A stretch of DNA of 36,012 bases from a virus, in IMG/VR virus record IMGVR_UViG_3300025151_000129, positions 1 through 36,012 of that record; one strand, written 5' to 3'. Below, piece after piece: positions 2,980 to 32,704 of this stretch; the stretch's first letter is position 1; each line of letters opens with the position of its first letter. The translations under genes were made by a program, and so were the position numbers. The notes under the pieces were generated by a model, which ran no database searches, was not told where the DNA came from, and saw only the letters and a list, made by a program, of their open reading frames with translations.

Positions 2980-3669
2980 ATGGCATGTTTGATAACAAAC
3001 CTTCCTTCACAAGAAGTATGGGTTCGTAAGGAATATTTAACAGATCATCAAAGTGGGCACGGGGAATTTGTAAAGGGCGTTTGGGTTTCGGCAAAGTCGA
3101 TTCCCGGACGCGCTTTTTATTTTGAGACATATTTACCCGAATATGCCGCAATGTATGATAAATTACCGATTAGTGCCTTTTTAAGTGAACCTGTTCTCCC
3201 TGATCCGGATATGACTCTTCATAACCTACAGTTCTGGAACTGTATGGACTATGGCGTAGTGACGGTACAGAAGCAATTCATTGGTTCTATGCACTATGAG
3301 GTCTATACAAGGGATTACGGCACTCAGACGGGCACGTACATATGCACTCTGGACAATTATCATCAGGATCCTGATGTGGTTGACTATGCAACCAGTGAAA
3401 ATCCGTCCGAACACAAGTCACATAACCTTATTGAACTTGATAATGGTCAGTATTGTCTCTATCCAAATAACAGAACTCGTATTTTTGATAATAGTTTGAC
3501 TCCTGAAGAACCAAAAATACCCGATTTTAAGGTTTCGACCGTATATTATCAGGTTGAAAATGGTCATGATCGTGATGGACTGGGTAATGATGAGAATTAT
3601 TTCTGGAAAACGGCAAAAGAACGTCAAAATAGTGAAGAAAATGTTGAAAATGAAGGTATAAATAAATAA
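2980..3669 (+). CDS. 229-residue conserved cyanophage protein
   Basis: The product is 229 residues. The N-terminal half is strongly conserved in my memory of cyanomyovirus genomes: MACLITNLPSQEVWVRKEYL, then GHGEFVKGVWVSAKSIPGRA and FETYLPEYAAMYDKLPISAF. The middle has CMDYGVVTVQKQFIGSMHYE and the end has YYQVENG and YFWKTAKER. It is rich in aromatic residues and has no membrane segment. No enzyme motif is recognised. It often sits just upstream of gene 25 in this phage group, which suggests a virion or morphogenesis role, but that is only context. A late promoter octamer lies inside its last codons, so transcription of the virion operon begins here. Confidence 0.7.
   Translation: MACLITNLPSQEVWVRKEYLTDHQSGHGEFVKGVWVSAKSIPGRAFYFETYLPEYAAMYDKLPISAFLSEPVLPDPDMTLHNLQFWNCMDYGVVTVQKQFIGSMHYEVYTRDYGTQTGTYICTLDNYHQDPDVVDYATSENPSEHKSHNLIELDNGQYCLYPNNRTRIFDNSLTPEEPKIPDFKVSTVYYQVENGHDRDGLGNDENYFWKTAKERQNSEENVENEGINK
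3657..3664 (+). promoter_or_regulatory. T4-type late promoter (TATAAATA)
   Basis: This is an exact match to the T4 late promoter -10 octamer recognised by the gp55-type late sigma factor. It lies in the last codons of the preceding gene and 17 bases before the gp25 start. It is the likely main late promoter of the baseplate operon. Confidence 0.75.
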
Positions 3670-6005: not shown

Positions 6006-9000
6006 ATGAAAGATTCATACCTTGAAACAAGGATCAAAGTTCAAGACATTTTAGGAAATCAACTTCCTAGATTTATTGTAGACGAAAGTCCAAAAACAGT
6101 AGATTTTTTAAAACAATATTATATTTCCCAAGAATATCAAAGTGGTCCTGTTGATATTGCAGAAAATTTAGATCAGTATTTGAATCTTGATACTTTAGTA
6201 TCAGAAGTTATAGTTGGTGTAACTACCCTGTCTTCTGATATATCATCGACAGAAACTACAATAACAGTCAGTAGTGGAACTAAAGGATATCCTGATGAAT
6301 ATGGATTATTAAAAATAGATGATGAGATTATTACGTACACCGGAATAACATCAACAAGTTTTACTGGTTGTATTCGTGGATTTAGTGGCATTACCGATTA
6401 TCATCAAGATTTAAATCAAGAAGAGTTAGTATTTTCTTCATCATCTGCGGCATCACATAGTGGCGGATCTTCAATTACAAATCTTAGTTCATTATTTTTA
6501 AAAGATTTTTACAATAAATTTAAATTTACATTTGCGCCAGGATTAGAAGGTAAAGATTTTATATCTTCTTTGAATGTAGGGAATTTCTTAAAAGAGATAA
6601 AATCATTTTATATTTCTAAAGGCACAAACGAATCCTTTAGAATTTTATATAATGTTCTTTATGGTAGAGAACCAAAAGTAATAAATTTAGAAGAACTAAT
6701 ACTCAAACCTTCTTCTGCAAAATTCAAAAGAAGACAAGTTGCCTTAGCCAGATTGATATCTGGAAATCCTTTAAAGATAAAGGGTCAATCAATATTTAAG
6801 GATAATTCTTCTAGTGAAGCATCAGTATCTGATATACAAGCAGTTGTAACTGATAATGAAGTTTTATATCAAATTGACCTGTTTATTGGATATGATGAAA
6901 TTTCTGACATCAAAGGTATATTTAAAATTACACCAAATAGTAAATCTGTTGAGGAATCTGCCGCTGGTTCAAAGGTAATAACAGTAGATTCTACACTAGG
7001 TTTTTCTGATAGTGGAACAATAGTTTCTGGAAATAATACTATTACTTATACTGATAAAACCATTAATCAATTTTTAGGTTGCACGGGAATAGAAAGCACA
7101 ATTGAAAAAAGTGATATTGTAAGAAGTAATGAATTGTATTTTGGGTATGAAGATGGAGATACCAGTAAAAGGGTAGATTTAATTTTTGTTGGTGTATTAA
7201 ATGACTTTGTTCAAGATGGTAATTTGGATATTGATGAAGGAGATGTATTAAAAATAAAAAATTATGGTATAAAAATTGAAAATCCAGAGAGTAACAAAAG
7301 TAAAAAAGAAATTTTTTCAAATTCTTGGATATACAATACTAGTTCGACCTATCAAATTACATCCTTTAACAATCAAACCATTCAATTAAGTAGTTTAATT
7401 GATCGTTCGAGTCTTAAAAAAGGAGATAATATTGAAATTATTGATAGATTTACAAAAAATAGAATATTTCCTACTAACAATAACGATCAATATCCGATTA
7501 TTACTGCAATAGATATACAAAATAATAGTGTAATTTTAGATAATTTTGCTTTCAGTCCCGATGACGCTAAAAATTATAATTTAAGAAGAGTTCTTAATAA
7601 AGCAAAAACAGAATCAGAAAAAACATTATTGAAATATGGAAATTCTGTAATTACTTCTGATGTTCAAAATGTTTATTTTGATGACATCAACAAAGATTTT
7701 TATGTTGCCTCAAATTCATTACCATCTGAAGTTAATGATAGCGAAGTTAGTGGTAGCAATGAATATAGGGAAAATTTGAGTGTTGAGGTGGTTCAGGAAT
7801 CATTATCAAGTGCTATTGCAAATGACCCACCAGAAGAAGAGGATAATTTACGTGAGCGTAATGATGATGAAAAATACACACAAATTAAATTTACTTCAAA
7901 CCCAATAAAATTTAGAACCGGAGATAAAGTATTATATTCCCCTAAAGGAGAAGGAGATCCTTTATTGGGTTTGACCGAGGGTATATATTATGTTAAGAAG
8001 ATATCTTCAAATACGATTGAATTGTATTCTTCTTTACCAGCAATTGATGTAGGTAGAAAATTAGGATTTTTAGCACCAATTTCAAATGATTTGGGTCATG
8101 TTTTCACACTATACTCTCAAAGAACTAATATTATTGATTCTCAAAAATTATTAAAAAAATTCCCATTAGTTTCAAATTTGAATAAAAATCCATCCCCCAC
8201 AAACCATGGTGGAATAGGAATGTTGATAAATGGTGTTGAAATTGATAGTTACAAATCATTAGATAAAGTTTATTACGGAAAACTCAATAGTATTGACGTT
8301 TTAAATGGTGGAGAAGATTTTGATGTTACAAATCCTCCTGAACTGGTGGTATCCGAGAGTTCTGGAACAAGAGCTCTTGCTCAACCAGTATTAAAAGGAA
8401 CAGTCACAGATATTTTAATTGATGAGTTTAATTACAATGTTAATCAAGTAGTTTCTATAGGAGTTACCGGAGGTAATGGGACAAGCATATCTGTTGTTCC
8501 TATCACACAAAAAAGATTTGTAGAACTTCCATTTGATGCCAGATCTGATAGTAATGGGGGTAAAATTACATTATCAAATAATAGAATTTTATTTGATGAC
8601 GATCACGGTTTAGATGATGGTCAAGAGGTAGTTTATGATTCAAATTTAAATAATCCTTTAGGAGTTGGTGCAGGTTCTTCAACGTTAGTGAGTGATGGAA
8701 GATATTTTGCTAAAGTTTTAAACAATAAAACAATAAAACTTTTTCCAACTCTTTCTGATTTAAATGGTAATACTAATGAAATCAACTTTAATGGAACTAA
8801 CACATCTGGTGTTCATAAAATTAAAGTAGGACCTTATAACTTATTAAGACAAATTAATGTATTGGATGGTGGAGTATTTTACAACAATAAATTACAAGTT
8901 TCTCCTTCGGGAATATCGACAATTACGAATACAATTAATTTCAACAATCATGGATTTAATAGTGGTGAAATAGTAGAGTATTCGTCATCCGGAACAACGA

Positions 9001-12000
9001 TCACAAATTTAAACATTAATAATCAATACTATGTTTTAAAGATAAATGATAATTCTTTTAGAGTATGTGATGCTGGCATTGGAGGAACAGTGTCAACAAA
9101 TTATGATAAGAAAAATTATATTGAATTTGATAATACCGGAACAGGATATCAAACATTTAAGTATCCTGATATAAAAGCTTTTGCAAATGTTGTAACTGTT
9201 GGATTAGGCACAACTAGTACACAATCTATTACTTTAACTCCTGTTGTTAAAGGATCAATAGATAGAGTTCATTTATATGAGGCAGGAACAAAATATGGAT
9301 CTACAATAAAAAACTATGAAAGAAAACCAACAATAAGTGTAAAGAATGGTAGAGATGCCAGAGTTAGACCAATTATTGTAGGTGGACAAGTTCAAAGAGT
9401 TAATGTTGAATACGGTGGTGCAGAGTATTACTCTATTCCCAATTTAAATATTATTGATCCTACCAATTCTGGAACTGGTTGTGTCTTACGTCCAGTTATA
9501 GAAAATCAACGATTAGTTGAGGTAAAGGTTATTAATGCCGGAGCAGGATATTCGGAGACACAATCTTTTATAGATGTTACTTCTTCAGGTAAAAATCAAG
9601 TATTTGATTCTAATGTTAGATCTTTAACTGTGATAAATGGAGGTAATTTTGATGTTGATAATAATCTAATTTTTGATAGTAAAGTACTTTCAGAAAACAA
9701 AAAAGAAACAGCATTAAATTATTCTGTTCTCAACTATGAAGACAATATTTTCTTAGATAATTCAAGTAAAATATCTGGAATTATTGGGTGGGCATATGAT
9801 GGAAATCCAATTTATGGACCTTATGGATCTAAAGATCCCAATGAATTTAGTGTTGCAGAAATTTTAACATCAGGATACACCAAGAATAGTAATTTAGTAG
9901 AAGATCGTCCCTCTACAAGTATATTCCCAGAAGGATTTTTTGTTGAAGATTATACATACGACAATAGTGGGGATTTAGATGAATATAATGGTAGATTTGA
10001 GAAAAACAGTGATTTTCCTAATGGAGTATATGCATATCATGCATTATTAGATGGAAACGGAAAAGGAGTATTTCCTTATTTCATCGGCGACAAATATTAT
10101 TCATCTCCAGAAAAAGAAAACTTCAATGATATTGATCAAACATTTGATTTCAATAATTCAAATTTAAAGAGAAATACTTTTCCATATAAATTATTTGATT
10201 CTTCATCTGAGAATAATTTTATTAGAAATAATATAGAAAAAGAACATAGAATTGAAATAGTATCTACATCGTCAGGTTCAATAGAATCTTTTAATATTAA
10301 TGATGGAGGAACTGGATACAAAGTAAATCAAATTTTAAAATTTGACAATTCAAGCACTAATGGATCCGGAGTATCTGCAAAGATTTTTGCTGTAAAAGGA
10401 AAAGATATAGTAGATGTAACAACGACAGAGACTAATATTACAAATGCTATTTCATCCAATGAAGGCGGAAAAATAAGAGTTTCTGTATCAACAAGTCATC
10501 CTTTCAACGATAATGATATCATTTCTTTTAGTGGAATATCATCAACATCTGTTGCAGATCTTCAAGTATTTTCAAAAATAAATGTTCTTCCTTTATCAAA
10601 TACTAGATGTTTATCAACAGTATCTTCAGTTTCTGATGTAAGTACACCCATATCTTCAGATATTTTAGTTTCCTTTATACCATCATATGTTTCTGCAGAT
10701 AGTGTAGTGTCAATAGGAACAGAAACTTGTACGGTATTGAATGCTTATCAGGACAGTAACATTCTTACGGTACAAAGAACTCTTACAGGACTTGAACATC
10801 CAAAGGGAACTATTTTATCATATACCCAAAAAGATTTTACCGTTGATGTTGATATTCCAACATCGTTATTTGGTATTGATGATTCTAAAGTTAATGAAAA
10901 GGTTTATTTCAATCCATCTCAATCTGTAGGAATTGGAACTACTGTAGGAACTACGAATAAAGTTTCTTTTACTCGGGCAGGTACACCAATAACACGTAAT
11001 ATTCCTGTTCAAGAAATTTATTTAGAAAATCATCCATTTACAACTAATCAAAAAATTGTTTATGAGGGTCCTAATAGTGCTATTGAAGTTAAAATATCTC
11101 CTAGTGATTCCTCTAATATAAATTTAGAAAACTTTTCTACATTGTATGCCGTAAAAACTAGTGCAAATACTATTGGAATAAAAACTGGAATTCAAACATC
11201 AAATTTATATTTTATTGAGGCTGATGATAAAATTAATGCATCTTTTAGAACAGATTATGATCAAATAACGGTAGATTTGAAAAAAATTAACTCGGTGGTT
11301 TCTGTTTCAACTTCTCATGGAATGAATACAGGTGACACCGTAATATTAGATCATAAATCTAATTTATCAAAGACCGTTACCTTAAAAAGAGATTCTGAAG
11401 ATGGTTTTATTTTAGTTAATCCAGATAATGTTGATTCTTTTACAACAGCATCTAATATTTTAACCTTGACATCTCATGAGTTCAAGACAGGAGACAAAGT
11501 AAAATATTCCACAACAGGAACACCTCCTACAGGATTGACAAATGATTCATACTATTATGTTTATGTTGATGGTGTAGACACAATACAGTTATGTGAAACT
11601 TATGTTGATGCGGTTGAAGTTCCATCTAACGCGGTTACATTTTCTTCAACAGGATCTGGAACGCATACAATATCCTTAGTTAATTCTCAAATTTCATTAA
11701 CAAGAAATGATAATTTAGTATTTGACACATCAGATTCTTCACTATCCGAATATACTCTTAGACTTTTTTATGATCAAGAATTTGATAATGAATTTGTATC
11801 GACCGGATCAACTTCTTCATTCTCTGTAACAGGTATTGGATCTACTGTAACAACATTAACTTATAGTGATTCTTTACCTGATAAATTATACTATGCTTTA
11901 GAAAAGTCTGGACACATTAGCACGGCAGATTTTGATGTCAAGAATTATTCTGAAATAAAATTCTTTGATAGTGGATATGATGGTGAATTTATTATTACTG

Positions 12001-15000
12001 GTGCAGGAACAACTACCTTTACAATAAATCCTCCATCTGTAGAAAGATTATCATATACTAAATCTCAAACTGATACCTTTGAATATGAAACTACATCAAC
12101 ATCTGCTGTTGGTCCGGTTTCTAGGATAACATTAATGTCTGGTGGATCAGATTATAAAAAATCTCCAATCTTTGTTGGGGTTGGAACTACAACATCAACA
12201 AATGCACTAATTATTCCATCTTCAAAAGAAATAGGGAATGTTAAAAACATTAGATCCATATCCAATTCATTTGAATATCTTTTTGATAGAACATTAAGAC
12301 CAGAAGCATTAATTCCACAGAAAGTTGAGTTTTTAGATTCTAATACAATTGATACTATAACTGTTACTAATAATGGTAGTAACTATATTAATAATCCTGA
12401 TGTAATTATTATTGATAGTAATACAAACAACATTATTAATTCTGGATTTTTGACTTCAGAAATAAATTCTGGAGAATTAATAGGTGTCAATGTCATTACA
12501 GAACCAGTTGGACTTCCTGAAAAAGAAATCACCATAAGAACAATTAATAATGATAATGGTGTTGCCATTACTGGTGTCACCACAGACTCTAATACTAGAT
12601 TTAAGTGTACCATACAAACACCATTATCTGGATTTAGTAAAAAACCTTTTGAACAGGGAGATGAGGTATACATTGAGGGTATAACTGCTTCTTCAGGACT
12701 TGGATTTAATTCTGAAGATTATGGATATAGATTTTTTGAAGTTGTTAATGTAGAGACGGACTCTGGTAGTAATGTAATTACTTTTGATTTTACTGGAATA
12801 TCAACAAATATCGGTGTTCCTGGAACTGCATCAAATTATGGTAGATTAATACCAAAAACTGATTATCCACAATTTAGCACCACATATAAAACATCTTTAT
12901 TTACGATTGGTGAAAATATACTCTGTAATGGAATAATCACAGATCTTGAAGTTGTTGAAAGTAAAACAAACTATTTAAAAATTATTGGTAGATATGTAAT
13001 ATCTTCTGGAGATAATATTGAGGGTTCTATATCCAAAAATACTGCTAAGGTTTCAAAAATTACAGATAATAAAGGAACATTTACAATTGACTTTTCCGAT
13101 AAAGTAGAATTTGGATGGGATGATGATACGGGGAAAACAAATACAAGTGTTCAGGTAATTCCTGATAATGATTATTATCAAAATTTATCATATTCTGTCA
13201 AGAGTCCAGTTACTTGGAAAGAGTCTGTAAATACTACAAATAATTTAGTTCACACTATTGGACTTAAAAACTTTGCCGATACTGAAGTTGAAACTAGTTC
13301 TAGTGTGTCTATTGGAGGAACTAGTGCATCTGTAGTTATTGTTGATGTTATTGACAAACTAAGAGCTGATACAATTTATAATTTTGATAATGCAAGAGAT
13401 GTTGATGTTGCAGATGGAAAATCAAGATTTATTGAACTTGAAAATACAAGATTAACTGATTATATTAATTGTAAAACAAATAATGCACTGACCATTGATA
13501 ATATTAATCAACAATTCTCTAATTTGGAAGATTCTCCAGATGAATTTTTAAATATTGATAATATTGATGGTTCTTCTAGATTTGATACTTATTTGGTCAA
13601 ATTGAATAGCTTCCCAAGAAATAAAAATCAAGCTCAATTATCAGAAATTGTATTATTGAGTAGTGGTGATAGTTCGGATAACATTTTAATAAACAAATTG
13701 GAATTAATAAATTCTGGCGATGGTGCTATTACTTCTGTTGATGAATTATATGGATCTTATCAAATTCAATTACATGAAGATGGTGAAAACTATTTTAGAT
13801 TTGTTCCAAATGATCCATATGATGTTGATTATGATCTTAAATTCATAAAAACATCATTTGGTTCATCCGCAGGTATTGGATCTACTACTTTTGGATCTAC
13901 AACACTAAGAACTTTTACGGCATCAGTGTTTCCTGATACAACTCAGGTAACAGGATATGATATCAATCAATATAATGCACTATATGTCAACACAAAAGTA
14001 GAAGATCTTATTACACATGAAATGAATTACGTCGAAACTTATGTTACCCATGATGGAACTGATACTAAATTAAGTGAGAGTTTTGTCGGATCTACTTTAG
14101 AAACTAACCCTCAAATTGGATTTTCTACAGCATCTATTTCTGGTAGCACTTTAATACTTGGATATGAAAATCCGGCAGGTAATAATAAAATTAGAATAAG
14201 TCAAAAAATTGTTGGCATTGGAACTACTGGATCAGGAAATGGTGAATATCGTTACTCTATTGGTTCTGAACAAATTGCCGGTGCAGAAAGAAGTGCGGTA
14301 TATCAATCTATAAATCAAGTTGGTATAGGGACCACAACTATTGTTGAATTAGATTCAAGTTTATTTGATGCTGCAAAATCTATTGTTTATGTTCAATCAA
14401 ATAATTTTAGTGCTTTGCATCAGTTAACAGTATTGCACGATGATACCAATGGATATATTCAGCAAGCACCATTCTTAACTAATGATGATGTTGTTCCTAT
14501 CACTGGATTAGGTACATTTGGTGTTGAATTTTCTCCTTCCGGAAATCTTACTGTTAAATTCCATCCAGAAGATTCAGTTGGTGTAACTACTGTAAATATT
14601 TTCAATCAGGCAATATATAAAATCTTAGATCTTGAAAATACATATCCAAGTTTGGATTATGGCAGAGTATCTGAAAGTGTGTCTAATGCTTCTTATAATG
14701 CCGTAAATGGTGCTAGAATTAATAAAAAAGACTTTGACTTAAAGTATCAAAATACTCCTATATTTTCTAAATCATTTAATCCATCCAGTGTTATAACGGC
14801 AGGAACAGGAAAGAGTGTTTTTAACATTGAAGATCATTTCTTCAGACCCGGAGAAGAATTGATTTATACTCCAAATTCAACGATTGTTGGAGTTGGATCT
14901 ACACCTATGATGTATGAAGATGATGCCGGAAATGTGGGTGTCTTGACATCAAGAGTATTTGCCATTCGCGTAACAAAAGATAGTTTTGGAATTTCTACAA

Positions 15001-18000
15001 CTAAAACCAAAGCAAATGCAGGAATTGGTGTTACCATAACATCATTTGGTGAAGGTAATGCCCATATATTTGAAATGGCAAAATCAAATGAAAAATCAGT
15101 AATATCTATTGACGGAATAATTCAATCTCCAATTAATGATATTCAAGTAAGTCATACTTTAGAAAATAATCCTGGTTCAGGTATTGGAACGACTACAACT
15201 TTATTCAGTTTGAGTGGAATATCCACAATAAAAGTCGATACTATATTGAAAGTTGAAGATGAATATATGAGAATTCTTAGCGTTGGTATAGGAACTTCAA
15301 CTTCAGGTCCTATCACTGTTGGTGTAGGAACTTACAATTTAGTAGAGGTCACTAGAGGATTTGTTGGAAGTTCTGCAACATCACATGCAAATGGTGTATC
15401 CGCCAATCTTTTTCAAGGATCATTCAATATTGTTAACAGTAAAATACATTTTGCCGAAGCTCCCAGAGGAAATCCTCAACAAACCACTCTTGAAACTGGA
15501 TTGCCATTCCCAAGATCTACTTTCAATGGAAGAGTATTTTTGAGAAATAGTTATGATACAAATATCATTTATGATGATATTTCAAAAGATTTTACTGGAA
15601 TTACATCAGAATTTATTCTTAAGAAAAATAGTGCTAATACAGTGGGTATTGGTACTAGTGGTGGTAATGGAATTGTATTAGTAAATGGAATTTATCAAAC
15701 ACCAATAACTGAAAATAATCGTGATGGAAATTATAAAATTATAGAAGATATAAATGCCGGAATAACGACAATTAGATTCACTGGAATTACTGTAGAAAAT
15801 ACAGAACAACTTGCAATATCTGATACTGATGTTAATAGAAATGAATTACCTAGAGGTGGGGTTCCTGTAACTTTAGGTTCAACAGGAGGACTGGGATATG
15901 CTCCTCTTGTTCCAGCAAATGTAATACCGTTTCTTGATGGTAATGGTGCAATAACAAGCATAATTGGTGTTGCCACAGCAAAACCTGATTTGGGAATTAA
16001 TACAGCGTCTTATGATAAGACAACTGGTATTTTATCAGTTACTACAAATACAAATCATGATTTTAATTTTGGAACAGATTTTGTTAAATTAGAAGGATTA
16101 GAATTTTCTTGTCCTGGTGGATCTGGAATTACAACAACAATTTTCCCAGATACTGCAACTAAAGTTTTTGCCATAACAAAAGTTGTATCACCAACTATTT
16201 TTGAAACTAAAGTAGGAACCAGCACCATTACACACACTTATGTGGGTCAAGGAAGTGCATATCCATATTATCCAGATTTAACATTTGGATCTGGATATAA
16301 TAACATTGTTAGTATTGGTGTTACAGTTTATGATCCATCACAAGATGCTGGTGGTAGTATAGCAACTATAACTGCATCACCAGTTGGGTTTAATACTCAT
16401 ATTTTTGTATCAGCAGTGGATACAGGTTCAATTGCTTTAGCATCTAACCCAACAGATAAAAGAACACCAACTAATGTTTTATATGATCCATTATCTGGAA
16501 TAGCAACATTTGTATTGGGTGAAAATCATCCTTTCTCTGTAGGAGACACCGTTACTATTGCCGATAATTCACTAACGTTTACGTGTGCTCAGGATAGTCA
16601 TCAAACTAATCATTCATATCCAAGGAGCACTGATCCCATGGGATCAAATTCTACAACCTCTATAGGATCAACAGATGACACAACTGTTACATTGAATGTA
16701 GGATCCTCTGCAGCACATGGTGGGGGAAGATTGCAGTTTAATATTGGTGCAGGTGGAACTGGATACAACGATCCTCAAATTTTTGTATCTCCACCATCTT
16801 ATGAAAGTTTAGAGGTAAGAGGGGTTTCTAGATTGGGTGTAGGTAACACCACTGATACTGGAAGTGGATTACTTGTTGATATTGTTATGCAACCATCTTC
16901 AGAATATGCTGGAATTGGAACTTATGAAGTTGGAGAATTTGTTGTTGCAAGATCTGGATTTGGTTTTGAAAGAGGAGATAAATTTGAACCTGTTGGATTG
17001 GTCACAGACTATAGACTGGAGCAAGTAAAAACTCAATTTAGAATGGAGGTTACTGAAGAATTTACTGATAGTTTCTGTATGTGGCAATTTGGTGAAATTG
17101 ATTATATTGACTCAATTAAAGATCTTCAAACGGGTTCTAGAAAAAGATTTCCAATCAAATATAATGATGAATTGTTCAGTATAGAAAAAGATGATGTTTT
17201 ATTTGAAGATGGTGATCTTTCAAACATTATGTTAGTTATAAGAAATCGTGTTGTTCAAGAACCAATATTACATTATTATTTTATTGGTGGCACTTCAATT
17301 GTATTTACTGATGCACCTGAACCACAAGATGATATTCAAATCTTCTTCTATAGAGGAACTAAGGGTGTTGATGAAACAATTGGAGCAGCAACCACAAACG
17401 CTCCTATAAAACCAGGTGATCAAATAATTCTCTCAAGTCCTCTTGGATTAACAACCAGTCAAACGGTAAGAACTTCTTTCAGAATTTCCAACTCTGATAG
17501 TTTAGAAACTAATGTATATTCTGGTGAAGGTATTGATGAAGAAAATTATAAACCAATTACAGTAATTAAACAAAAAAATAATTTTGTTGCCGATGGTGAA
17601 CTTGTTACAAAAGATCGTAAGAGCTTAACGTCAAGAATATTCCCCGTGGCTAAAATTATTGGTGACATTGAAACATCAACAGGAAAGTTTTTTGTTGATA
17701 CTGTAAATTTATTTGATTATGAGAATAATATAAGTCAAGATACGATTTCTGCACGATTGGTTGCCGAAACTTCAAATCCAGTTGCAGCTGCCATAACAGC
17801 AACTGTATCAATTGCGGGAACAATATCAGCACTTACTATTAATGATGGTGGTTCTGGATATAATTCTTCATCACCACCAACAATTAAATTATCAAATCCA
17901 TATGACACATTCGATGTAGATGATGAAGGAAGATCTATAATTAGTAGTATTGGTGTTACTGCTACTGCTACTGCAACAGTCAGTTCTGCTGGAACTGTAA

Positions 18001-18614
18001 GTAGTGTAAGTATTACCAATGCTGGTTCTGGTTATACTACGGATACTCCTCCTGGTGTAATTGTTGGACTATCCTCAATAATATCTGAAGAAATTGGATC
18101 AATAGGAATTGTTACCTCAATGTCTGGGGCAATCATTGGTATTGGAACTACATTATCTTCATCACAACTTGCGATTAAGTTTACTACAGAAAATGCAAGA
18201 TCATTTGATGGAGTTATTGGAGTAGGTGATCCAATATTCATATATGACACTGAAGTTGGATCTGGAGTTACATCAGTAAATGCGACAGATTCCAACGTAG
18301 TTGGTATAGGAACAACATTTGTAGATAATATCTATATTATCTCGGAGTTGAGTGAAAGTGGTAATCCTATAGTGGGGGTAATAACATGTACAGTGAAGAG
18401 TGATACAAGTACCACAGGAATTAGTACTGTGGGTTATTCTACTAATCCCGTAGGAAGATATTCTGTGGGGATTATTTCGAGTATTACTAGATCTTCATCA
18501 CCAATTTCTATAGGTGTTACAGGTCTTACAGTTGATGCCGGACTAACTACTTTCCCATCAATTGTGAGAACGGGTGGTCAGATCACTTTTAATGAAAGTG
18601 GTGCCATTAACTGA
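6006..18614 (+). CDS. gp7: giant baseplate wedge protein in the gp7 position
   Basis: This single open frame encodes 4202 residues, about four times T4 gp7 (1032), and fills 35% of the window. Its place between gp6 and gp8 and an N-terminus of cyanophage-gp7 type (PRFIVDESPKTVDFLKQYY, then FRILYNVLYGREPKVINLEE near residue 215) support the call. The interior is a chain of beta modules: a YHYH domain (about 1258-1365); at least eight 'H-G/P-F...GD-V' modules; four 'IDDEIITY...RG' modules; G-x-GY repeats; and many GIGTT strings. Near residues 3677-3790 there is a conserved segment, VTEEFTDSFCMWQFGEIDY to IFFYRGTKGVDE. It probably forms the wedge backbone plus long surface extensions that might contact fibres or the host surface. 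No stop or frameshift interrupts it. Identity with T4 gp7 outside the N-terminus is inferred from position only. Confidence 0.8.
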   Translation: MKDSYLETRIKVQDILGNQLPRFIVDESPKTVDFLKQYYISQEYQSGPVDIAENLDQYLNLDTLVSEVIVGVTTLSSDISSTETTITVSSGTKGYPDEYGLLKIDDEIITYTGITSTSFTGCIRGFSGITDYHQDLNQEELVFSSSSAASHSGGSSITNLSSLFLKDFYNKFKFTFAPGLEGKDFISSLNVGNFLKEIKSFYISKGTNESFRILYNVLYGREPKVINLEELILKPSSAKFKRRQVALARLISGNPLKIKGQSIFKDNSSSEASVSDIQAVVTDNEVLYQIDLFIGYDEISDIKGIFKITPNSKSVEESAAGSKVITVDSTLGFSDSGTIVSGNNTITYTDKTINQFLGCTGIESTIEKSDIVRSNELYFGYEDGDTSKRVDLIFVGVLNDFVQDGNLDIDEGDVLKIKNYGIKIENPESNKSKKEIFSNSWIYNTSSTYQITSFNNQTIQLSSLIDRSSLKKGDNIEIIDRFTKNRIFPTNNNDQYPIITAIDIQNNSVILDNFAFSPDDAKNYNLRRVLNKAKTESEKTLLKYGNSVITSDVQNVYFDDINKDFYVASNSLPSEVNDSEVSGSNEYRENLSVEVVQESLSSAIANDPPEEEDNLRERNDDEKYTQIKFTSNPIKFRTGDKVLYSPKGEGDPLLGLTEGIYYVKKISSNTIELYSSLPAIDVGRKLGFLAPISNDLGHVFTLYSQRTNIIDSQKLLKKFPLVSNLNKNPSPTNHGGIGMLINGVEIDSYKSLDKVYYGKLNSIDVLNGGEDFDVTNPPELVVSESSGTRALAQPVLKGTVTDILIDEFNYNVNQVVSIGVTGGNGTSISVVPITQKRFVELPFDARSDSNGGKITLSNNRILFDDDHGLDDGQEVVYDSNLNNPLGVGAGSSTLVSDGRYFAKVLNNKTIKLFPTLSDLNGNTNEINFNGTNTSGVHKIKVGPYNLLRQINVLDGGVFYNNKLQVSPSGISTITNTINFNNHGFNSGEIVEYSSSGTTITNLNINNQYYVLKINDNSFRVCDAGIGGTVSTNYDKKNYIEFDNTGTGYQTFKYPDIKAFANVVTVGLGTTSTQSITLTPVVKGSIDRVHLYEAGTKYGSTIKNYERKPTISVKNGRDARVRPIIVGGQVQRVNVEYGGAEYYSIPNLNIIDPTNSGTGCVLRPVIENQRLVEVKVINAGAGYSETQSFIDVTSSGKNQVFDSNVRSLTVINGGNFDVDNNLIFDSKVLSENKKETALNYSVLNYEDNIFLDNSSKISGIIGWAYDGNPIYGPYGSKDPNEFSVAEILTSGYTKNSNLVEDRPSTSIFPEGFFVEDYTYDNSGDLDEYNGRFEKNSDFPNGVYAYHALLDGNGKGVFPYFIGDKYYSSPEKENFNDIDQTFDFNNSNLKRNTFPYKLFDSSSENNFIRNNIEKEHRIEIVSTSSGSIESFNINDGGTGYKVNQILKFDNSSTNGSGVSAKIFAVKGKDIVDVTTTETNITNAISSNEGGKIRVSVSTSHPFNDNDIISFSGISSTSVADLQVFSKINVLPLSNTRCLSTVSSVSDVSTPISSDILVSFIPSYVSADSVVSIGTETCTVLNAYQDSNILTVQRTLTGLEHPKGTILSYTQKDFTVDVDIPTSLFGIDDSKVNEKVYFNPSQSVGIGTTVGTTNKVSFTRAGTPITRNIPVQEIYLENHPFTTNQKIVYEGPNSAIEVKISPSDSSNINLENFSTLYAVKTSANTIGIKTGIQTSNLYFIEADDKINASFRTDYDQITVDLKKINSVVSVSTSHGMNTGDTVILDHKSNLSKTVTLKRDSEDGFILVNPDNVDSFTTASNILTLTSHEFKTGDKVKYSTTGTPPTGLTNDSYYYVYVDGVDTIQLCETYVDAVEVPSNAVTFSSTGSGTHTISLVNSQISLTRNDNLVFDTSDSSLSEYTLRLFYDQEFDNEFVSTGSTSSFSVTGIGSTVTTLTYSDSLPDKLYYALEKSGHISTADFDVKNYSEIKFFDSGYDGEFIITGAGTTTFTINPPSVERLSYTKSQTDTFEYETTSTSAVGPVSRITLMSGGSDYKKSPIFVGVGTTTSTNALIIPSSKEIGNVKNIRSISNSFEYLFDRTLRPEALIPQKVEFLDSNTIDTITVTNNGSNYINNPDVIIIDSNTNNIINSGFLTSEINSGELIGVNVITEPVGLPEKEITIRTINNDNGVAITGVTTDSNTRFKCTIQTPLSGFSKKPFEQGDEVYIEGITASSGLGFNSEDYGYRFFEVVNVETDSGSNVITFDFTGISTNIGVPGTASNYGRLIPKTDYPQFSTTYKTSLFTIGENILCNGIITDLEVVESKTNYLKIIGRYVISSGDNIEGSISKNTAKVSKITDNKGTFTIDFSDKVEFGWDDDTGKTNTSVQVIPDNDYYQNLSYSVKSPVTWKESVNTTNNLVHTIGLKNFADTEVETSSSVSIGGTSASVVIVDVIDKLRADTIYNFDNARDVDVADGKSRFIELENTRLTDYINCKTNNALTIDNINQQFSNLEDSPDEFLNIDNIDGSSRFDTYLVKLNSFPRNKNQAQLSEIVLLSSGDSSDNILINKLELINSGDGAITSVDELYGSYQIQLHEDGENYFRFVPNDPYDVDYDLKFIKTSFGSSAGIGSTTFGSTTLRTFTASVFPDTTQVTGYDINQYNALYVNTKVEDLITHEMNYVETYVTHDGTDTKLSESFVGSTLETNPQIGFSTASISGSTLILGYENPAGNNKIRISQKIVGIGTTGSGNGEYRYSIGSEQIAGAERSAVYQSINQVGIGTTTIVELDSSLFDAAKSIVYVQSNNFSALHQLTVLHDDTNGYIQQAPFLTNDDVVPITGLGTFGVEFSPSGNLTVKFHPEDSVGVTTVNIFNQAIYKILDLENTYPSLDYGRVSESVSNASYNAVNGARINKKDFDLKYQNTPIFSKSFNPSSVITAGTGKSVFNIEDHFFRPGEELIYTPNSTIVGVGSTPMMYEDDAGNVGVLTSRVFAIRVTKDSFGISTTKTKANAGIGVTITSFGEGNAHIFEMAKSNEKSVISIDGIIQSPINDIQVSHTLENNPGSGIGTTTTLFSLSGISTIKVDTILKVEDEYMRILSVGIGTSTSGPITVGVGTYNLVEVTRGFVGSSATSHANGVSANLFQGSFNIVNSKIHFAEAPRGNPQQTTLETGLPFPRSTFNGRVFLRNSYDTNIIYDDISKDFTGITSEFILKKNSANTVGIGTSGGNGIVLVNGIYQTPITENNRDGNYKIIEDINAGITTIRFTGITVENTEQLAISDTDVNRNELPRGGVPVTLGSTGGLGYAPLVPANVIPFLDGNGAITSIIGVATAKPDLGINTASYDKTTGILSVTTNTNHDFNFGTDFVKLEGLEFSCPGGSGITTTIFPDTATKVFAITKVVSPTIFETKVGTSTITHTYVGQGSAYPYYPDLTFGSGYNNIVSIGVTVYDPSQDAGGSIATITASPVGFNTHIFVSAVDTGSIALASNPTDKRTPTNVLYDPLSGIATFVLGENHPFSVGDTVTIADNSLTFTCAQDSHQTNHSYPRSTDPMGSNSTTSIGSTDDTTVTLNVGSSAAHGGGRLQFNIGAGGTGYNDPQIFVSPPSYESLEVRGVSRLGVGNTTDTGSGLLVDIVMQPSSEYAGIGTYEVGEFVVARSGFGFERGDKFEPVGLVTDYRLEQVKTQFRMEVTEEFTDSFCMWQFGEIDYIDSIKDLQTGSRKRFPIKYNDELFSIEKDDVLFEDGDLSNIMLVIRNRVVQEPILHYYFIGGTSIVFTDAPEPQDDIQIFFYRGTKGVDETIGAATTNAPIKPGDQIILSSPLGLTTSQTVRTSFRISNSDSLETNVYSGEGIDEENYKPITVIKQKNNFVADGELVTKDRKSLTSRIFPVAKIIGDIETSTGKFFVDTVNLFDYENNISQDTISARLVAETSNPVAAAITATVSIAGTISALTINDGGSGYNSSSPPTIKLSNPYDTFDVDDEGRSIISSIGVTATATATVSSAGTVSSVSITNAGSGYTTDTPPGVIVGLSSIISEEIGSIGIVTSMSGAIIGIGTTLSSSQLAIKFTTENARSFDGVIGVGDPIFIYDTEVGSGVTSVNATDSNVVGIGTTFVDNIYIISELSESGNPIVGVITCTVKSDTSTTGISTVGYSTNPVGRYSVGIISSITRSSSPISIGVTGLTVDAGLTTFPSIVRTGGQITFNESGAIN
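6262..6402 (+). repeat. first copy of the 'IDDEIITY...RGFSG' module
   Basis: Residues of about 86-132 of the gp7-position protein contain LLKIDDEIITYTGI and FTGCIRGFSGITDYH. Related copies lie at about 6975-7100 (NTITYTDKT, GCTGIEST), 10687-10815 (VSIGTETCTV, QRTLTGLEHPKG) and 15205-15400 (LKVEDEYMRI, VTRGFVGSSATSHANG). A further copy lies in the DUF4815 protein at about 26460-26620. The shared pattern is a strand with an acidic EE/DE pair, a hydrophobic strand, then RG-x-x-G-x-x-x-x-x-H. Confidence 0.55.
7903..11660 (+). repeat. repeated 'HGF-x-x-GD-V-x-YS' beta modules in the gp7-position protein
   Basis: Protein-level repeats of about 50 residues start near 7903 (FRTGDKVLYSPKG), 8590 (DDHGLDDGQEVVYD), 8940 (NNHGFNSGEIVEYS), 10485 (TSHPFNDNDIISFS), 11008 (ENHPFTTNQKIVYE), 11300 (TSHGMNTGDTVILD) and 11465 (TSHEFKTGDKVKYS). 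Each is followed by a tyrosine-rich strand (YYVKKI, YYVLKI, YYYVYV) and a strand ending in 'T-I-x-L'. Two more lie at 16045 and 16517. They look like small beta domains in tandem. DNA identity between copies is low, so they are old. Confidence 0.6.
9778..10101 (+). other. YHYH domain inside the gp7-position protein
   Basis: Around residues 1258-1365 the segment IIGWAYDGNPIYGPYGSKD is followed by EDYTYDNSGDLDEYNGRF, FPNGVYAYHALLD and FPYFIGDKYY. This is the pattern of the YHYH domain (PF14240), with the GWAYDGNPIYGP core and a Tyr-His pair (AYHA). The family occurs in marine bacterial exported proteins and cyanophage virion proteins; its activity is not known. Metal or carbohydrate binding is a guess. 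Confidence 0.75.
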
Positions 18615-27956: not shown

Positions 27957-28301
27957 ATGTCTGCAGTATATGTAAGTAATATTGTTATTAATCAGGGAGC
28001 AGATTTTGATCAGGTATTTACAATATCTGATAATGCAAATCTTACCTTGGATCTATCATTATATACAATTTCTGCACAACTTAGAAAACATGCCGGGAGT
28101 ACAACAAAAGTAGATTTTTCGATAACAAAACTTGATCCAACTTCAAACGGTTCTTTTGAAGTTAAATTAACTGATACACAAACTTCTGCTCTTAAAAGTG
28201 GCAGATATGTGTATGATATTATGATTACTGAAATATCTAATGATAAAAAAACAAGAGTTATTGAGGGAACTGCTCTTGTAAGAGAGGGAGTTACACGATA
28301 A
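27957..28301 (+). CDS. 114-residue beta-rich virion-associated protein
   Basis: The product is 114 residues: SAVYVSNIVINQGADFDQVF, then LDLSLYTISAQLRKH, then a C-terminal LKSGRYVYDIMI and TRVIEGTALVREGVTR. Alternating hydrophobic strands and the 'I-x-Q-G-A-x-F' opening match a small Ig-like or jelly-roll protein found beside tail-fibre genes in many phages. In such phages it is usually annotated as hypothetical or structural. It shares a TAATG stop-start overlap with the fibre-like gene that follows, and AGGGAG near its end serves that gene. An assembly or attachment role for the neighbouring fibre is plausible but not shown. Confidence 0.65.
   Translation: MSAVYVSNIVINQGADFDQVFTISDNANLTLDLSLYTISAQLRKHAGSTTKVDFSITKLDPTSNGSFEVKLTDTQTSALKSGRYVYDIMITEISNDKKTRVIEGTALVREGVTR
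28285..28290 (+). promoter_or_regulatory. ribosome-binding site for the fibre-like gene
   Basis: AGGGAG inside the last codons of the previous gene, 10 bases before ATG 28301. It is one of the few strong Shine-Dalgarno sequences in the late operon and supports this start and its TAATG overlap. Confidence 0.65.
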
Positions 28302-29035
28302 TGTCACAGGTCAAAGTCCGTGTAGGACAAACAGACGCAATTAAAGTTTTATCATCAGGTCTCCTCAGTGATACTGCTTTCAATGTTGTTGGTGGTATTG
28401 CCAGTGTAACAACTCTGACTGTTACTGGTGCGGTAAATTTTGGGCAACCAGTACAATTTGGTACTGGAACAATTTATATTAAGGGTGATGAAGATGAAAT
28501 TCTTGTTGGATCTGGATTATCACTTACTGATAATTACATAGATATACGAGGTGACATAAATGTTCTTCAAAAAGATTATTTTGATGATCTAGGAAATAGA
28601 ATTATCAGTCATGGTAATTTATTTGTTGGAAATAACTTAAAATCAGTTGGTATAACCACGTTAGCATCTGCCGGAGGTATTACAACAACCGGTGGAAATT
28701 TATTTGTCGGAAATAATTTAGAAGTTGCCGGAACCTCCAATTTTATTGGTACTGCTACGTTTAGAGGAGGAACAATTAATCTTGGTGATTCTGATTCTGA
28801 TGACATCAATGTTGGTGGAGAATTTACCTCAGGATTGATTCCAAATACTACTGGGTTATATAATGTTGGATCAACAGTAAAATCATGGAAACATGGAAAT
28901 TTTTCTGGAACAATAACTGCAACTGATTTAAATATCTCCGGATTGTCTACACATGTTGGAGTTGCAACTTTTCAAAACAATGTATTTGTTGATGGAACAT
29001 TAACTGCCGGACTCATAGATGGAGGTTCATTCTGA
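28301..29035 (+). CDS. fibre-like structural protein
   Basis: The product is 244 residues. The N-terminus MSQVKVRVGQTDAIKVLSSG precedes a series of short Gly/Thr/Asn-rich strands. GNLFVGNNL occurs twice, 27 residues apart (about 105 and 132), and NTTGLYNVGSTVKSWKHGNF near residue 180 is a typical phage tail-fibre shaft repeat ('Y-N-x-G-S-x-x-x-x-W'). It ends FVDGTLTAGLIDGGSF. This is a trimeric fibre or whisker pattern. By synteny it lies just before gp13, where T4 encodes gp12 and the whisker fibritin (wac). It lacks a long coiled coil, so it is not obviously fibritin. It may be a short tail fibre or collar decoration. Confidence 0.65.
   Translation: MSQVKVRVGQTDAIKVLSSGLLSDTAFNVVGGIASVTTLTVTGAVNFGQPVQFGTGTIYIKGDEDEILVGSGLSLTDNYIDIRGDINVLQKDYFDDLGNRIISHGNLFVGNNLKSVGITTLASAGGITTTGGNLFVGNNLEVAGTSNFIGTATFRGGTINLGDSDSDDINVGGEFTSGLIPNTTGLYNVGSTVKSWKHGNFSGTITATDLNISGLSTHVGVATFQNNVFVDGTLTAGLIDGGSF
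28613..28720 (+). repeat. duplicated GNLFVGNNL unit in the fibre-like gene
   Basis: The 27-base coding unit at 28613-28639 recurs at 28694-28720 with four base changes, all but one silent in effect on the motif. Spacing is 81 bases (27 residues), consistent with one duplicated fibre-shaft repeat. Confidence 0.7.
29021..29025 (+). promoter_or_regulatory. ribosome-binding site for gp13
   Basis: GGAGG lies 9 bases before ATG 29035, inside the end of the fibre-like gene. It supports the start of gp13, which overlaps the previous stop by one base (TGATG). Confidence 0.65.
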
Positions 29036-29874
29036 TGGCAAAACCAAGCACTAGACAAGAATTAATTGATTATTCTCTTAGGAGACTTGGTGCTCCAGTA
29101 TTAGAAATTAATGTTGATGATGATCAAATAGATGATTTGGTAGATGACGCCATACAATTCTATAATGAGAGACATTATGATGGTGTCGAAAGAATGTATC
29201 TCAAATACAAAATTACTCAGGAAGATATAGATAGAGGAAAAGCAGGTGGTTCTGGAGGGGTTGGTATAGTAACAACCTCTGCAACTTCAACTATAGTTGG
29301 GACAGCAACTACTTTTAATTTTTATGAGAATTCAAATTATCTCCAAGTTCCGGATTCTGTAATTGGTGTTGAAAAAATATTCAAATTTGATACCAGTTCT
29401 ATTTCTGGTGGAATGTTTAGTATCAAATATCAGTTATTCTTAAATGACTTATATTATTTTAATTCTGTTGAATTATTGCAATACTCCATGGTCAAAACCT
29501 ATCTTGAAGATATAGATTTTCTTTTAACTACGGACAAACAAGTTAGATTTAATAAAAGACAAGATAGATTGTACTTAGATTTTGACTGGAGTGCTCAAGA
29601 AAAAGATACGTATTTGGTAATTGATTGTTATCGAGCACTTGATCCAGCAAACTTTAATCAGGTTTACAATGATAGTTTTGTAAAGCAATATCTGACGGCA
29701 CTTATAAAAAGACAATGGGGTCAGAATCTAATTAAGTTTAGAGGTGTCAAACTTCCTGGAGGAATTGAACTAAATGGTAGAGAAATTTATGAGGATGCCG
29801 AGAGAGAAATAGATTCTCTTAGAACTAGAATGATGCAAGATTATGAATTACCACCCTACGACTTTATTGGATAA
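29035..29874 (+). CDS. gp13: neck protein gp13
   Basis: The 279-residue protein (T4 gp13 is 309) has the gp13 N-terminus: TRQELIDYSLRRLGAPVLEI, then DDQIDDLVDDAIQFYNERHY and DGVERMYLKYKITQEDIDRG. The C-terminal half, KQYLTALIKRQWGQNLIKF then GGIELNGREIYEDAEREI, is the conserved helical part of the family. In T4, gp13 and gp14 form the neck that closes the filled head and accepts the tail. A Gly/Thr-rich insert (GGSGGVGIVTTSATSTIVGT, about residues 71-90) interrupts the middle. It overlaps the preceding stop by one base and runs into gp14 with TAATG. Confidence 0.9.
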   Translation: MAKPSTRQELIDYSLRRLGAPVLEINVDDDQIDDLVDDAIQFYNERHYDGVERMYLKYKITQEDIDRGKAGGSGGVGIVTTSATSTIVGTATTFNFYENSNYLQVPDSVIGVEKIFKFDTSSISGGMFSIKYQLFLNDLYYFNSVELLQYSMVKTYLEDIDFLLTTDKQVRFNKRQDRLYLDFDWSAQEKDTYLVIDCYRALDPANFNQVYNDSFVKQYLTALIKRQWGQNLIKFRGVKLPGGIELNGREIYEDAEREIDSLRTRMMQDYELPPYDFIG

Positions 29875-31856
29875 TGGCACTTAATTCTTTCTTTTTACAA
29901 GGTTCACAAAGTGAACAAAGACTTATTCAAGAGTTAATCAATGAGCAACTTACCATTTATGGTGTTGATATTATATATTTACCTCGTAAAATTGTAAATC
30001 ATGATAATATTTTGAATGAGATAGAATCATCTAAATTTGATGATAATTTTTCTATAGAAGCATATGTAAACACATATGATGGGTATGGTGGTGCCGGAGA
30101 CATTATGACAAAATTTGGAATGAGTTTAAAAGATGAATTGACACTAACAATTTCAAAAGAAAGATACGAAGATTTTATTGCAACATTTGTGGCAGGTGTT
30201 CCTCCAACATATGATCCTCATTCAGGAACATTTAATCAACCTGATGATGATTTTGTTACGACTCGTCCCAGAGAAGGAGATTTAGTATATTTTCCATTAG
30301 GTAAAAGATTATTTGAAGTTAAATTTGTCGAACATGAACAACCATTTTATCAACTAGGAAAAAATTATGTTTATCAACTGAAGTGTGAACTCTTTGAATA
30401 TGAAGATTCTATGAATACTTTTGAAAATCTTAGTACAGGTTCTGAAGAGGTGGATGATCTTCTTGTTGATACTGGATTTATTACTTCTTTAATTCTTGTT
30501 GGAGCATCTTCTACGGCAACTGCCACAACACAAATATCTACTGGTTATGTCAGATCTTTAACTTTGAATGATGATGGATATGGTTATACTAGCACTCCAA
30601 CAGTATCATTCACACCATCTCCAGAAGGAAATGCAGATGCAAATGCCACTGCAGTGGCAATTACAACCGTTAGAAACAATGTATATTCTATTAAGGAGAT
30701 TTTATTGACAAATGCGGGTGTTGGATATACAGAAGCTCCGACTATTACAATATCTGGCGGTGGTGGTGTTGGTGCAAGTGCAACTTGTAGTATAGAAACA
30801 TCACTAAAAGGTATCAGAAAATATACAATTACTGACAATGGATCAGGATACACTAGTGCTCCTACGGTAACCATACCAACACCGGTAGGTCCTGGAGCTG
30901 CCGCAACCGCAACTGTAGGATCTGCCGGAACAATCACAACACTGACATTATCAACAGGTGGAAAATTCTATGGATCAGCACCTAATGTTATAATTGACTC
31001 GCCTCCAACAAGAACTGGTGTTGCCACAACAATAAGTTTGTCTAATTCATCTGGAACAAATGAACCAACATCAGTAGGAACTGGATATTTTGACGGAGAG
31101 ATTTATGAAACCACCGCAACCACTGGATCTGGAATTGGATTAAAAGTTCAAGTTTCTGTAAGTGGTGCAGAACAAAAAATTGATGGAGTTCAATCTATTT
31201 TATATGGTGGATATGGGTATGCAGTTAATGATATTGTTCAAGTTGTGGGAGGAGGTAACGATGGATATCTTAAGATTGGAAGCGGTGTAACAACTGGTAT
31301 AGGAACAACCGCATTAGCAACAGCATTAGTTACCAGTGGAGTAGTTACGGCATTTTCACTTACAAATCCTGGTAGTGGATATACAACTGCTCCTAACGTT
31401 AGCATTGCTAACACTGTAGGTGATAAAGATTATGTAACTTCGGGATTAACCACTGCCACGGCAAGAGTTGTTGTTTCTGCGGCAAATAAAGTAAGTGCAA
31501 TATACATTACGGATCCTGGAATAGGATATACAGCAGCACCATCAATTACAATTTCCTCCCCAACATCTGGAATTGGTACTTTCCAATTTAATGAGGTTGT
31601 TACGGGTTCACCTACAGGTGCTACTGGAAGAGTTAAGTCTTGGGATGGATCTACAAATACACTAAACCTTGGTGCAACAAATGGTACTTTTGGTCGTGGT
31701 GATACAGTTGTTGGATCTGCTTCCTCAGCATCTTATAAACTAAGTTCAATCAAGTCCGAGGATGTTACTGATAAATACGATAAAGGTGATGAAATAGAAA
31801 CATTTGCAGACACCTTACTAGACTTTACAGAAACTAATCCATTTGGTACATATTAA
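29874..31856 (+). CDS. gp14: neck protein gp14 with a long repeat-domain insertion
   Basis: The product is 660 residues against 256 in T4. The first 200 residues match gp14: IYGVDIIYLPRKIVNHDNIL, YVNTYDGYGGAGDIMTKFGM, then GDLVYFPLGKRLFEVKFVE (from residue 135) and PFYQLGKNYVYQLKCELFEY. The last 25 or so (ETFADTLLDFTETNPFGTY) match the T4 C-terminus pattern ending 'NPF'. Between them, about residues 205-635, is an insertion of seven G-x-GYT-x-x-P repeats, a GIGTT string and a GATGRVKSWDG segment. gp14 forms the neck with gp13; the insertion should project outward as a collar-like beta decoration. It is flanked by TAATG overlaps with gp13 and gp15, so the frame is intact. Confidence 0.88.
   Translation: MALNSFFLQGSQSEQRLIQELINEQLTIYGVDIIYLPRKIVNHDNILNEIESSKFDDNFSIEAYVNTYDGYGGAGDIMTKFGMSLKDELTLTISKERYEDFIATFVAGVPPTYDPHSGTFNQPDDDFVTTRPREGDLVYFPLGKRLFEVKFVEHEQPFYQLGKNYVYQLKCELFEYEDSMNTFENLSTGSEEVDDLLVDTGFITSLILVGASSTATATTQISTGYVRSLTLNDDGYGYTSTPTVSFTPSPEGNADANATAVAITTVRNNVYSIKEILLTNAGVGYTEAPTITISGGGGVGASATCSIETSLKGIRKYTITDNGSGYTSAPTVTIPTPVGPGAAATATVGSAGTITTLTLSTGGKFYGSAPNVIIDSPPTRTGVATTISLSNSSGTNEPTSVGTGYFDGEIYETTATTGSGIGLKVQVSVSGAEQKIDGVQSILYGGYGYAVNDIVQVVGGGNDGYLKIGSGVTTGIGTTALATALVTSGVVTAFSLTNPGSGYTTAPNVSIANTVGDKDYVTSGLTTATARVVVSAANKVSAIYITDPGIGYTAAPSITISSPTSGIGTFQFNEVVTGSPTGATGRVKSWDGSTNTLNLGATNGTFGRGDTVVGSASSASYKLSSIKSEDVTDKYDKGDEIETFADTLLDFTETNPFGTY
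30544..31560 (+). repeat. array of seven 'G-x-GYTSAPTVTI' repeats in gp14
   Basis: Copies start near 30565 (DDGYGYTSTPTVSF), 30708 (NAGVGYTEAPTITI), 30828 (DNGSGYTSAPTVTI), 30948 (TGGKFYGSAPNVII), 31196 (YGGYGYAVNDIVQV), 31362 (NPGSGYTTAPNVSI) and 31508 (DPGIGYTAAPSITI). Spacing is about 120-145 bases for adjacent copies. Ala/Thr-rich strands (ATATV) separate them. This looks like a solenoid or bead-on-string beta array. Confidence 0.8.
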
Positions 31857-32704
31857 TGTTAGGGACTTATTACTATCATGAAATAATGAGAAAAACAATT
31901 GTTGCCTTTGGCACATTGTTTAATCAAATTTATATTCGTCATGATGATGGAGACGGAAATCTCTATAATGAACTAAAAGTTCCTTTGGCATATGGACCAT
32001 CTCAAAAGTTTCTGGCAAGAATTGAGCAACAAGGAGATTTGAACAAACCTGTTCAAATTACTCTTCCAAGAATGTCTTTTGAAATGAATGGTATTCAATA
32101 TGATTCTACAAGAAAAACTGGAATTACACAAACTTTCAAAGCAGTTGATAAAAATACTGCTGCTGTAAAAAAAGTTTTTATGCCGGTTCCTTATAATATT
32201 AATTTTGAACTCAATATATTATCAAAATTAAATGATGATGCTCTTCAAATTGTAGAGCAGATTCTACCATATTTTCAACCATCATTTAATGTTACAATAG
32301 ACTTAATTAGTTCTATTGGAGAAAAAAGAGACGTTCCCATCGTTTTGGATAGTATTTCTTTTCAAGATGATTATGAGGGAGATTTTTCTACAAGAAGAGC
32401 ACTGATTTATACACTTAGATTTACTGCCAAAACTTACATGTTTGGTCCTGTTGCCGATAGTTCTGAGGGTCTTATTAAGAAAGTCCAGGTTGATTACTAT
32501 GCAGATACTAATACACAAACTGCAAAACGTGAAGTACGGTACACTGCAACACCTAAGGCACTAACAGATAAAAATAATGATGGTGTTGTTAATGCAGCAG
32601 ACGATGCATTACTTGGACCTGATGATGATTTTGGATTTAATGAAACAACTACATTCTTCTCAGATTCTAAAACTTATAGTCCAACACAACAAAAAGATAT
32701 TTGA
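31856..32704 (+). CDS. gp15: tail terminator/sheath stabiliser gp15
   Basis: The 282-residue protein is close to T4 gp15 (272). The N-terminus MLGTYYYHEIMRKTIVAFGT parallels the T4 start, and IVEQILPYFQPSFN (residues 132-145) is nearly identical to T4. DVPIVLDSISFQDDYEGDFS and DSSEGLIKKVQVDYYADTNT also align with family positions. gp15 forms a hexamer capping the tube and sheath before head joining. Near the C-terminus (238-249) is a dockerin/EF-hand-like loop, DKNNDGVVNAAD, followed by an acidic tail GPDDDFGFNETT. The gene starts by TAATG overlap with gp14. Confidence 0.92.
   Translation: MLGTYYYHEIMRKTIVAFGTLFNQIYIRHDDGDGNLYNELKVPLAYGPSQKFLARIEQQGDLNKPVQITLPRMSFEMNGIQYDSTRKTGITQTFKAVDKNTAAVKKVFMPVPYNINFELNILSKLNDDALQIVEQILPYFQPSFNVTIDLISSIGEKRDVPIVLDSISFQDDYEGDFSTRRALIYTLRFTAKTYMFGPVADSSEGLIKKVQVDYYADTNTQTAKREVRYTATPKALTDKNNDGVVNAADDALLGPDDDFGFNETTTFFSDSKTYSPTQQKDI
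32567..32602 (+). other. dockerin/EF-hand-like Ca-binding loop in gp15
   Basis: Residues D238-K-N240-N-D242-G-V-V-N246-A-A-D249 match the dockerin/EF-hand loop at positions 1, 3, 5, 6, 8, 9 and 12, and are followed by the helix-like DALLG. Only one loop is present; dockerins usually have two. Confidence 0.6.

Follow-up and report, generated by a model that had tools for sequence, protein, structure and literature searches.

The head-tail connector is usually regarded as conserved core machinery. The 36,012-nucleotide stretch of viral DNA analyzed here (IMG/VR record IMGVR_UViG_3300025151_000129, referred to in full as the window) raises the question of why a neck protein, gp14, should harbor several hundred additional residues of repetitive sequence, and what such an insertion may contribute to the virion.

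Identity and genomic context of the window gp14

The open reading frame (ORF) concerned, located on the plus strand at positions 29874 to 31856, specifies a 660-amino-acid (aa) T4-type head closure protein, as evidenced by its matches to PHROG 460 (head closure Hc2; E = 4e-137) and to the Pfam family T4_neck-protein PF11649 (E = 1.4e-29). These matches, together with the motif counts given below, bear out the initial annotation, in which the ORF was described as a gp14 with a large beta-repeat insertion. The gene is situated between those encoding gp13 (plus strand, positions 29035 to 29874; 279 aa), which is devoid of the fibritin-binding domain III of T4, and gp15 (plus strand, positions 31856 to 32704; 282 aa; PF16724, E = 1e-93), the tail sheath stabilizer and partner of the gp14 C-terminal arm, with the terminase genes located downstream in a T4-like order (gp13-gp14-gp15-gp16-...-gp17). 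The window gp17 is 82 to 87% identical to those of S-SKS1, Bellamy, and P-SSM2, and the virus is, therefore, placed among the T4-like cyanophages. Because gp14 of S-SZBM1, in a 291-aa form, was detected in virions by mass spectrometry (PMC9146016), the protein is considered to be a component of the virion.

Domain organization of gp14

The boundaries within gp14 were defined by alignment with short gp14s, namely those of CBA120 (213 aa), JS98 (257 aa), Mosig (272 aa), S-PM2 (292 aa), and P-SSM7 (308 aa), which resolved the protein into a core (residues 1 to 196), an insert of approximately 430 residues (residues ~197 to 625), and a C-terminal arm (residues 626 to 660). The core (plus strand, positions 29874 to 30461) displays the T4 head closure/neck fold, based on PHROG 460, PF11649, and the structural match detailed below, and T4 gp14 chains align to residues 13 to 98 and 131 to 177 only (phmmer). 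The suggestion that both ends of the protein match T4 gp14 holds for the core, but not for the C-terminal end, which is without detectable similarity to T4 itself and resembles the corresponding arm in cyanophage gp14s and, on visual inspection, that of CBA120. This arm, "DKYDKGDEIETFADTLLDFTETNPFGTY" (plus strand, positions 31749 to 31856), is conserved in 63 gp14s; in T4, the C-terminal end of gp14 docks on gp15 (PMC12270204).

Alignment positions the insertion point at T4-type residue ~190, and the junction between core and insert (residues 176 to 195, corresponding to T4-type residues ~177 to 190; plus strand, positions 30399 to 30458) represents a hinge of low model confidence. As this point falls within residues 178 to 256 of T4 gp14, which are disordered before tail docking and then bind gp15 (PMC12270204), the array would be held on the segment that tethers the tail-gripping arm to the closure barrel. 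The T4 and window proteins are, therefore, alike in core fold, gene order, and position of the C-terminal arm, but differ in that T4 gp14, at 256 aa, is without an insert.

GxGYTxxP beta-repeats account for the greater part of the insert, as an array (residues ~205 to 562; plus strand, positions 30486 to 31559), delineated by motif count, a unit hidden Markov model (HMM), pLDDT, and dN/dS. The strict motif GxGYxxxP occurs five times (residues 235, 282, 323, 500, and 549), against 0.02 occurrences expected from residue shuffles, by which a chance origin is rejected, and it is absent from every other window ORF tested. The unit HMM identified five strong copies and three weak ones (residues 349 to 393, 389 to 432, and 437 to 480). 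The array had been described as consisting of seven copies, a number that is reached only if decayed copies (GKFYGSAP and GYGYAVND) are counted; five units are clear, and two or three are decayed. No Pfam family matched the array at E < 1, and GxGYTxxP-type units are also found in wedge, fiber, and other virion PHROGs. The remainder of the insert is formed by a second module of approximately 63 residues (residues 563 to 625; plus strand, positions 31560 to 31748), delineated by an HMM and by alignment with the 213- to 308-aa gp14s. Its motif (FxFNEVVTGSxxGATGRVKSWD...NGTFxxGDTVVGSxSSA) is different from that of the array units, and it constitutes the sole insert part in gp14 of S-PM2 and P-SSM7.

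Predicted fold of the insert

AlphaFold2 was applied to gp14 of a sibling contig, L013, the core of which is 95% identical to that of the window, using an alignment of 63 diverse sequences. The resulting model displayed pLDDT values of 91 to 97 across the array, approximately 84 for the second module, and below 50 for the hinge (residues 176 to 195). A model of the window gp14 itself, based on a shallow alignment of 39 close relatives, also gave well-folded strong units, whose values were mostly 80 to 97 across the two models, but values below 50 for the core. In Foldseek searches against the PDB, the L013 core was the sole part to find a match, namely the T4 gp14 structures 9lu5, 9lu7, 9lu6, 9mkb, and 9lu4 (E = 7e-9 to 4e-6), and no confident match to a solved structure was obtained for the array. 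The array is predicted to fold as a unit of its own, attached through a floppy hinge and outside the neck core, in line with the initial annotation. By prediction, its fold recurs in many phage structural, wedge, and fiber proteins (BFVD matches to the array-containing model). These matches include A0A6J5L2T0 and A0A6J5SB35, which are named as P22 gp10-like DNA-stabilizing proteins, so that the decoration of gp14 may be present on further connector proteins.

Length variation and near-identical pairs

Among 322 full gp14s, length was observed to range from 213 to 1,109 aa (292 to 657 aa among isolates alone), and a gp14 tree built from the core alone requires length class to have changed at least 26 times. 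The length CV of dereplicated sequences was 0.31 for gp14, compared with 0.11 for gp13 and 0.15 for gp15, making gp14 the most length variable of these three neck/tail-joint proteins. The cyanophage gp14s of P-SSM2 (470 aa), S-CAM9 (657 aa), and S-PRM1 (656 aa) have the core, insertion site, repeat unit, and second module in common with the window protein but differ from it in unit number and inserted domains, S-PRM1 having 8 units. S-PM2-type phages hold a constant gp14 of 292 to 296 aa that is devoid of the array, which is, therefore, dispensable. No description of this variation was found in the open-access literature, to which the search was confined. The longest gp14s, of 1,109 aa (L302, L304, and L311), contain a possible LamG-like stretch within the array, and those of L307, L313, L330, and L333 (1,021 to 1,022 aa) are without an 87- to 88-aa piece of these 1,109-aa relatives.

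The initial annotation had advised alignment of gp14 across many cyanophages, and closely related sequences proved to differ in this region. Sibling L013 is without exactly 552 bp of the window array (184 aa; plus strand, positions 30900 to 31451), the difference being in frame, with flanks that are 93.5% and 94.8% identical as determined by DNA alignment. This absence, together with the number of length-class changes on the core tree, leads us to reject the insert as an ancestral fixed feature. Contigs L051 and L070 are 99.4 to 99.6% identical over 7 kb, their sole difference being one 831-bp insert in gp14, which encodes a 277-aa LamG-like domain. The junction of this insert falls inside a run of 20 identical bp that codes for the repeat motif; the repeats may, therefore, themselves act as recombination seams. 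Similarly, relatives with and without FG-GAP_2 repeats possess gp14 cores that are 96 to 98% identical.

The same pairs bear on the proposition that the array is a structural cement which reinforces the head-tail joint by wrapping around gp13, gp14, or gp15, with unit number tracking particle size or pressure. While such a function would be in keeping with the location of the array adjoining the gp15-docking arm, and with the purifying selection described below, a difference of 277 aa is tolerated where the paired cores are identical and the neighboring genes 99.5% identical, and the LamG-like and seven-repeat FG-GAP inserts are bulky domains of unrelated sequence. We, therefore, regard this function as improbable.

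Exchange of LamG-like and FG-GAP domains

Six or seven FG-GAP_2 repeats were identified in gp14 of L167, L168, and L170 (E = 5e-77 to 2e-69), and relatives of these repeats are present in a baseplate wedge protein of S-MbCM6. The LamG-like domain is 90% identical between L051 and L338, though their gp14 cores are just 69% identical. A domain 86% identical to that of L051 is found in the cultured pelagiphage Mosig, in which it forms part of gp15 and is again bordered by similar repeat units. This domain, accordingly, moves horizontally. The name LamG-like is provisional, as searches with the L051 insert returned only laminin alpha-2 among the top matches, and weakly so (E = 0.08 to 0.4), and no Pfam match was obtained. 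The L051 contig by itself could be an assembly artifact; such an origin for the domain type is countered by its presence both in the independent contig L338 and in cultured Mosig, and the 292- to 657-aa range of gp14 lengths given above comes from isolates alone.

The Mosig cassette is of the same kind as that of gp14, with repeat units on either side of a LamG-like domain, and it likewise lies at the head-tail joint, but it is carried on gp15 in the company of a plain, unadorned gp14 of 272 aa, whereas the cassette of the sequences described here is carried on gp14. Mosig gp15 (L336:3092-4690) attains a length of 532 aa by virtue of this domain and the repeat units at its C terminus.

Selection on the insert

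In every pair tested, dN/dS was higher for the array (0.15 to 0.22) than for the core (0.03 to 0.14), values which indicate that the insert is under purifying selection, being kept but changing faster than the core. These values also bear on whether the insert reflects tolerated genetic drift, whereby recombination with other virion genes would load a permissive loop with functionless repeats. The presence of the GxGYTxxP-type unit in many virion proteins, the short-homology junction at the L051 insert, and the existence of constant short gp14 forms could all be explained in this manner; however, the array values are not near 1, the changes are always in frame, and up to approximately 900 extra residues are retained per gp14 copy, making drift an unlikely explanation. 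In one cyanophage lineage, gp14 has been listed as possibly under positive selection, among signals that were not above the false positive rate (PMC5112629). Synonymous divergence between the window gene (positions 29874 to 31853) and L002 is uneven, at 0.43 for the core, 0.22 for the array, and 0.11 for the C-terminal part, which appears to be a sign of mosaic recombination within the gene.

Relationship of the insert to fibritin whiskers

In T4, the fibritin whiskers dock on gp13 domain III (residues 190 to 239) and not on gp14 (PMC12270204). In an alignment of gp13 sequences, this domain (~46 residues) was absent from 13 proteins, i.e., those of the window, 11 cyanophages, and CBA120, and present in JS98. 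No fibritin match was obtained among the window ORFs scanned, Fibritin_C was absent from the complete genomes of P-SSM2, S-PM2, and S-CAM9 (and found in the JS98 positive control), and the JS98 wac protein, when used as a query, had no homologue in P-SSM2, S-PM2, S-CAM9, or Mosig. The earlier remark that no fibritin-like gene is seen is, therefore, upheld.

It had further been suggested that the insertion takes over a collar role, in which case it would perform the task of fibritin by holding or sensing the long tail fibers at the neck. Such a replacement is compatible with the combined absence of fibritin and its gp13 docking domain in cyanophages, and enteric T4-like phages likewise exchange the C-terminal domains of fibritin among themselves (PMC3797505). 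However, S-PM2, P-SSM7, Mosig, and CBA120 are without the array and, as searched, also without the dock or fibritin, so that whisker loss needs no insert. In addition, the insert contains no coiled coil, and a fiber role is better fitted by the gene in the T4 wac position, beside gp13 (plus strand, positions 28301 to 29035), which encodes a 244-aa fiber-like protein. Whisker replacement is consequently viewed as improbable, and the suggested collar role is not sustained.

The 244-aa protein belongs to a family present in several cyanophages, whose members of 73 to 213 aa share an N terminus resembling VRVGxxxAxKVLSS, a variable middle, and a C-terminal DGG[FY]. It represents another candidate neck fiber.

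A probable exchangeable display site at the neck

The explanation that best accommodates these data, and which we favor by a modest degree, is that gp14 provides a site for exchangeable display at the neck, probably serving accessory adhesion. Each subunit of the gp14 ring (hexameric in T4) would carry an exchangeable display segment, and, because the closure barrel precedes this segment and the gp15-locking C-terminal arm follows it, it most likely hangs outward at the head-tail joint, where six copies would be exposed. The site had been expected to decorate the neck, and this remains likely; as the structures found included no neck of a marine T4-like phage, we infer the outward exposure. 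The short beta units with their repeated motif would allow recombination to add or remove whole units and foreign domains (LamG-like or FG-GAP) without loss of the reading frame. That the insert serves as an exchangeable external display is considered very probable. Its likeliest work would be to bind the host surface, or other material such as glycans, with low affinity and in an accessory capacity; this adhesive function is proposed tentatively, by analogy, and the arguments for and against it are close to balanced. Counted against the overall explanation are the weak LamG assignment, the dispensability of the array in S-PM2-type phages, and the case of A-1(L), whose neck fiber bears at its tip a carbohydrate-binding module that did not bind the host (PMC10966104).

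The neck passage structure of 936 lactococcal siphophages and their carbohydrate-binding modules on the MTP offer a parallel, in that a conserved neck attachment is combined with swappable display, like gp14 (PMC6669499). These phages, however, employ a distinct collar protein, in which a BppU-like N terminus is combined with a coiled coil and display is at the chain end, whereas in the window the display would be located inside the closure protein: according to the alignment and the L013 model, the insert lies within gp14 and has neither a helical shaft nor a separate BppU-like or coiled-coil collar protein. T4 fibritin (wac) is likewise attached to the neck and bears distal domains that are exchangeable among T4-like phages, but is a coiled-coil trimer docked on gp13, of which neither gene nor dock was found here.

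A more far-reaching scenario, which we consider doubtful but conceivable, would be that marine T4-like phages dropped the fibritin collar together with its gp13 dock, that the gp14/gp15 joint became a cassette site for the in-frame exchange of adhesion domains (repeat rods, LamG-like, and FG-GAP), and that near-isogenic phages differ in host contact via the neck and not the tail tip. Near-identical natural phages do differ only by a whole domain in a neck ring protein, and the window and L013, L051 and L070, and the relatives with and without FG-GAP repeats constitute natural pairs for the study of neck decorations in abundant ocean viruses.

Additional observations

In the S-CAM9 lineage, in which gp14 carries long repeat arrays, gp13 (L094:1871-2992; 373 aa) has approximately 90 extra residues, indicating that gp13 also takes an insert there. 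Elsewhere in the window, positions 6006 to 18614 encode a giant virion protein of 4,202 aa (PHROG 2885, baseplate wedge), the last third of which weakly matches the gp14 family PHROG 460, perhaps via shared repeat units. Beside the baseplate genes, positions 2980 to 3669 harbor an auxiliary metabolic gene, whose 229-aa product falls in a PHROG labeled "ferredoxin" and has no Pfam match.
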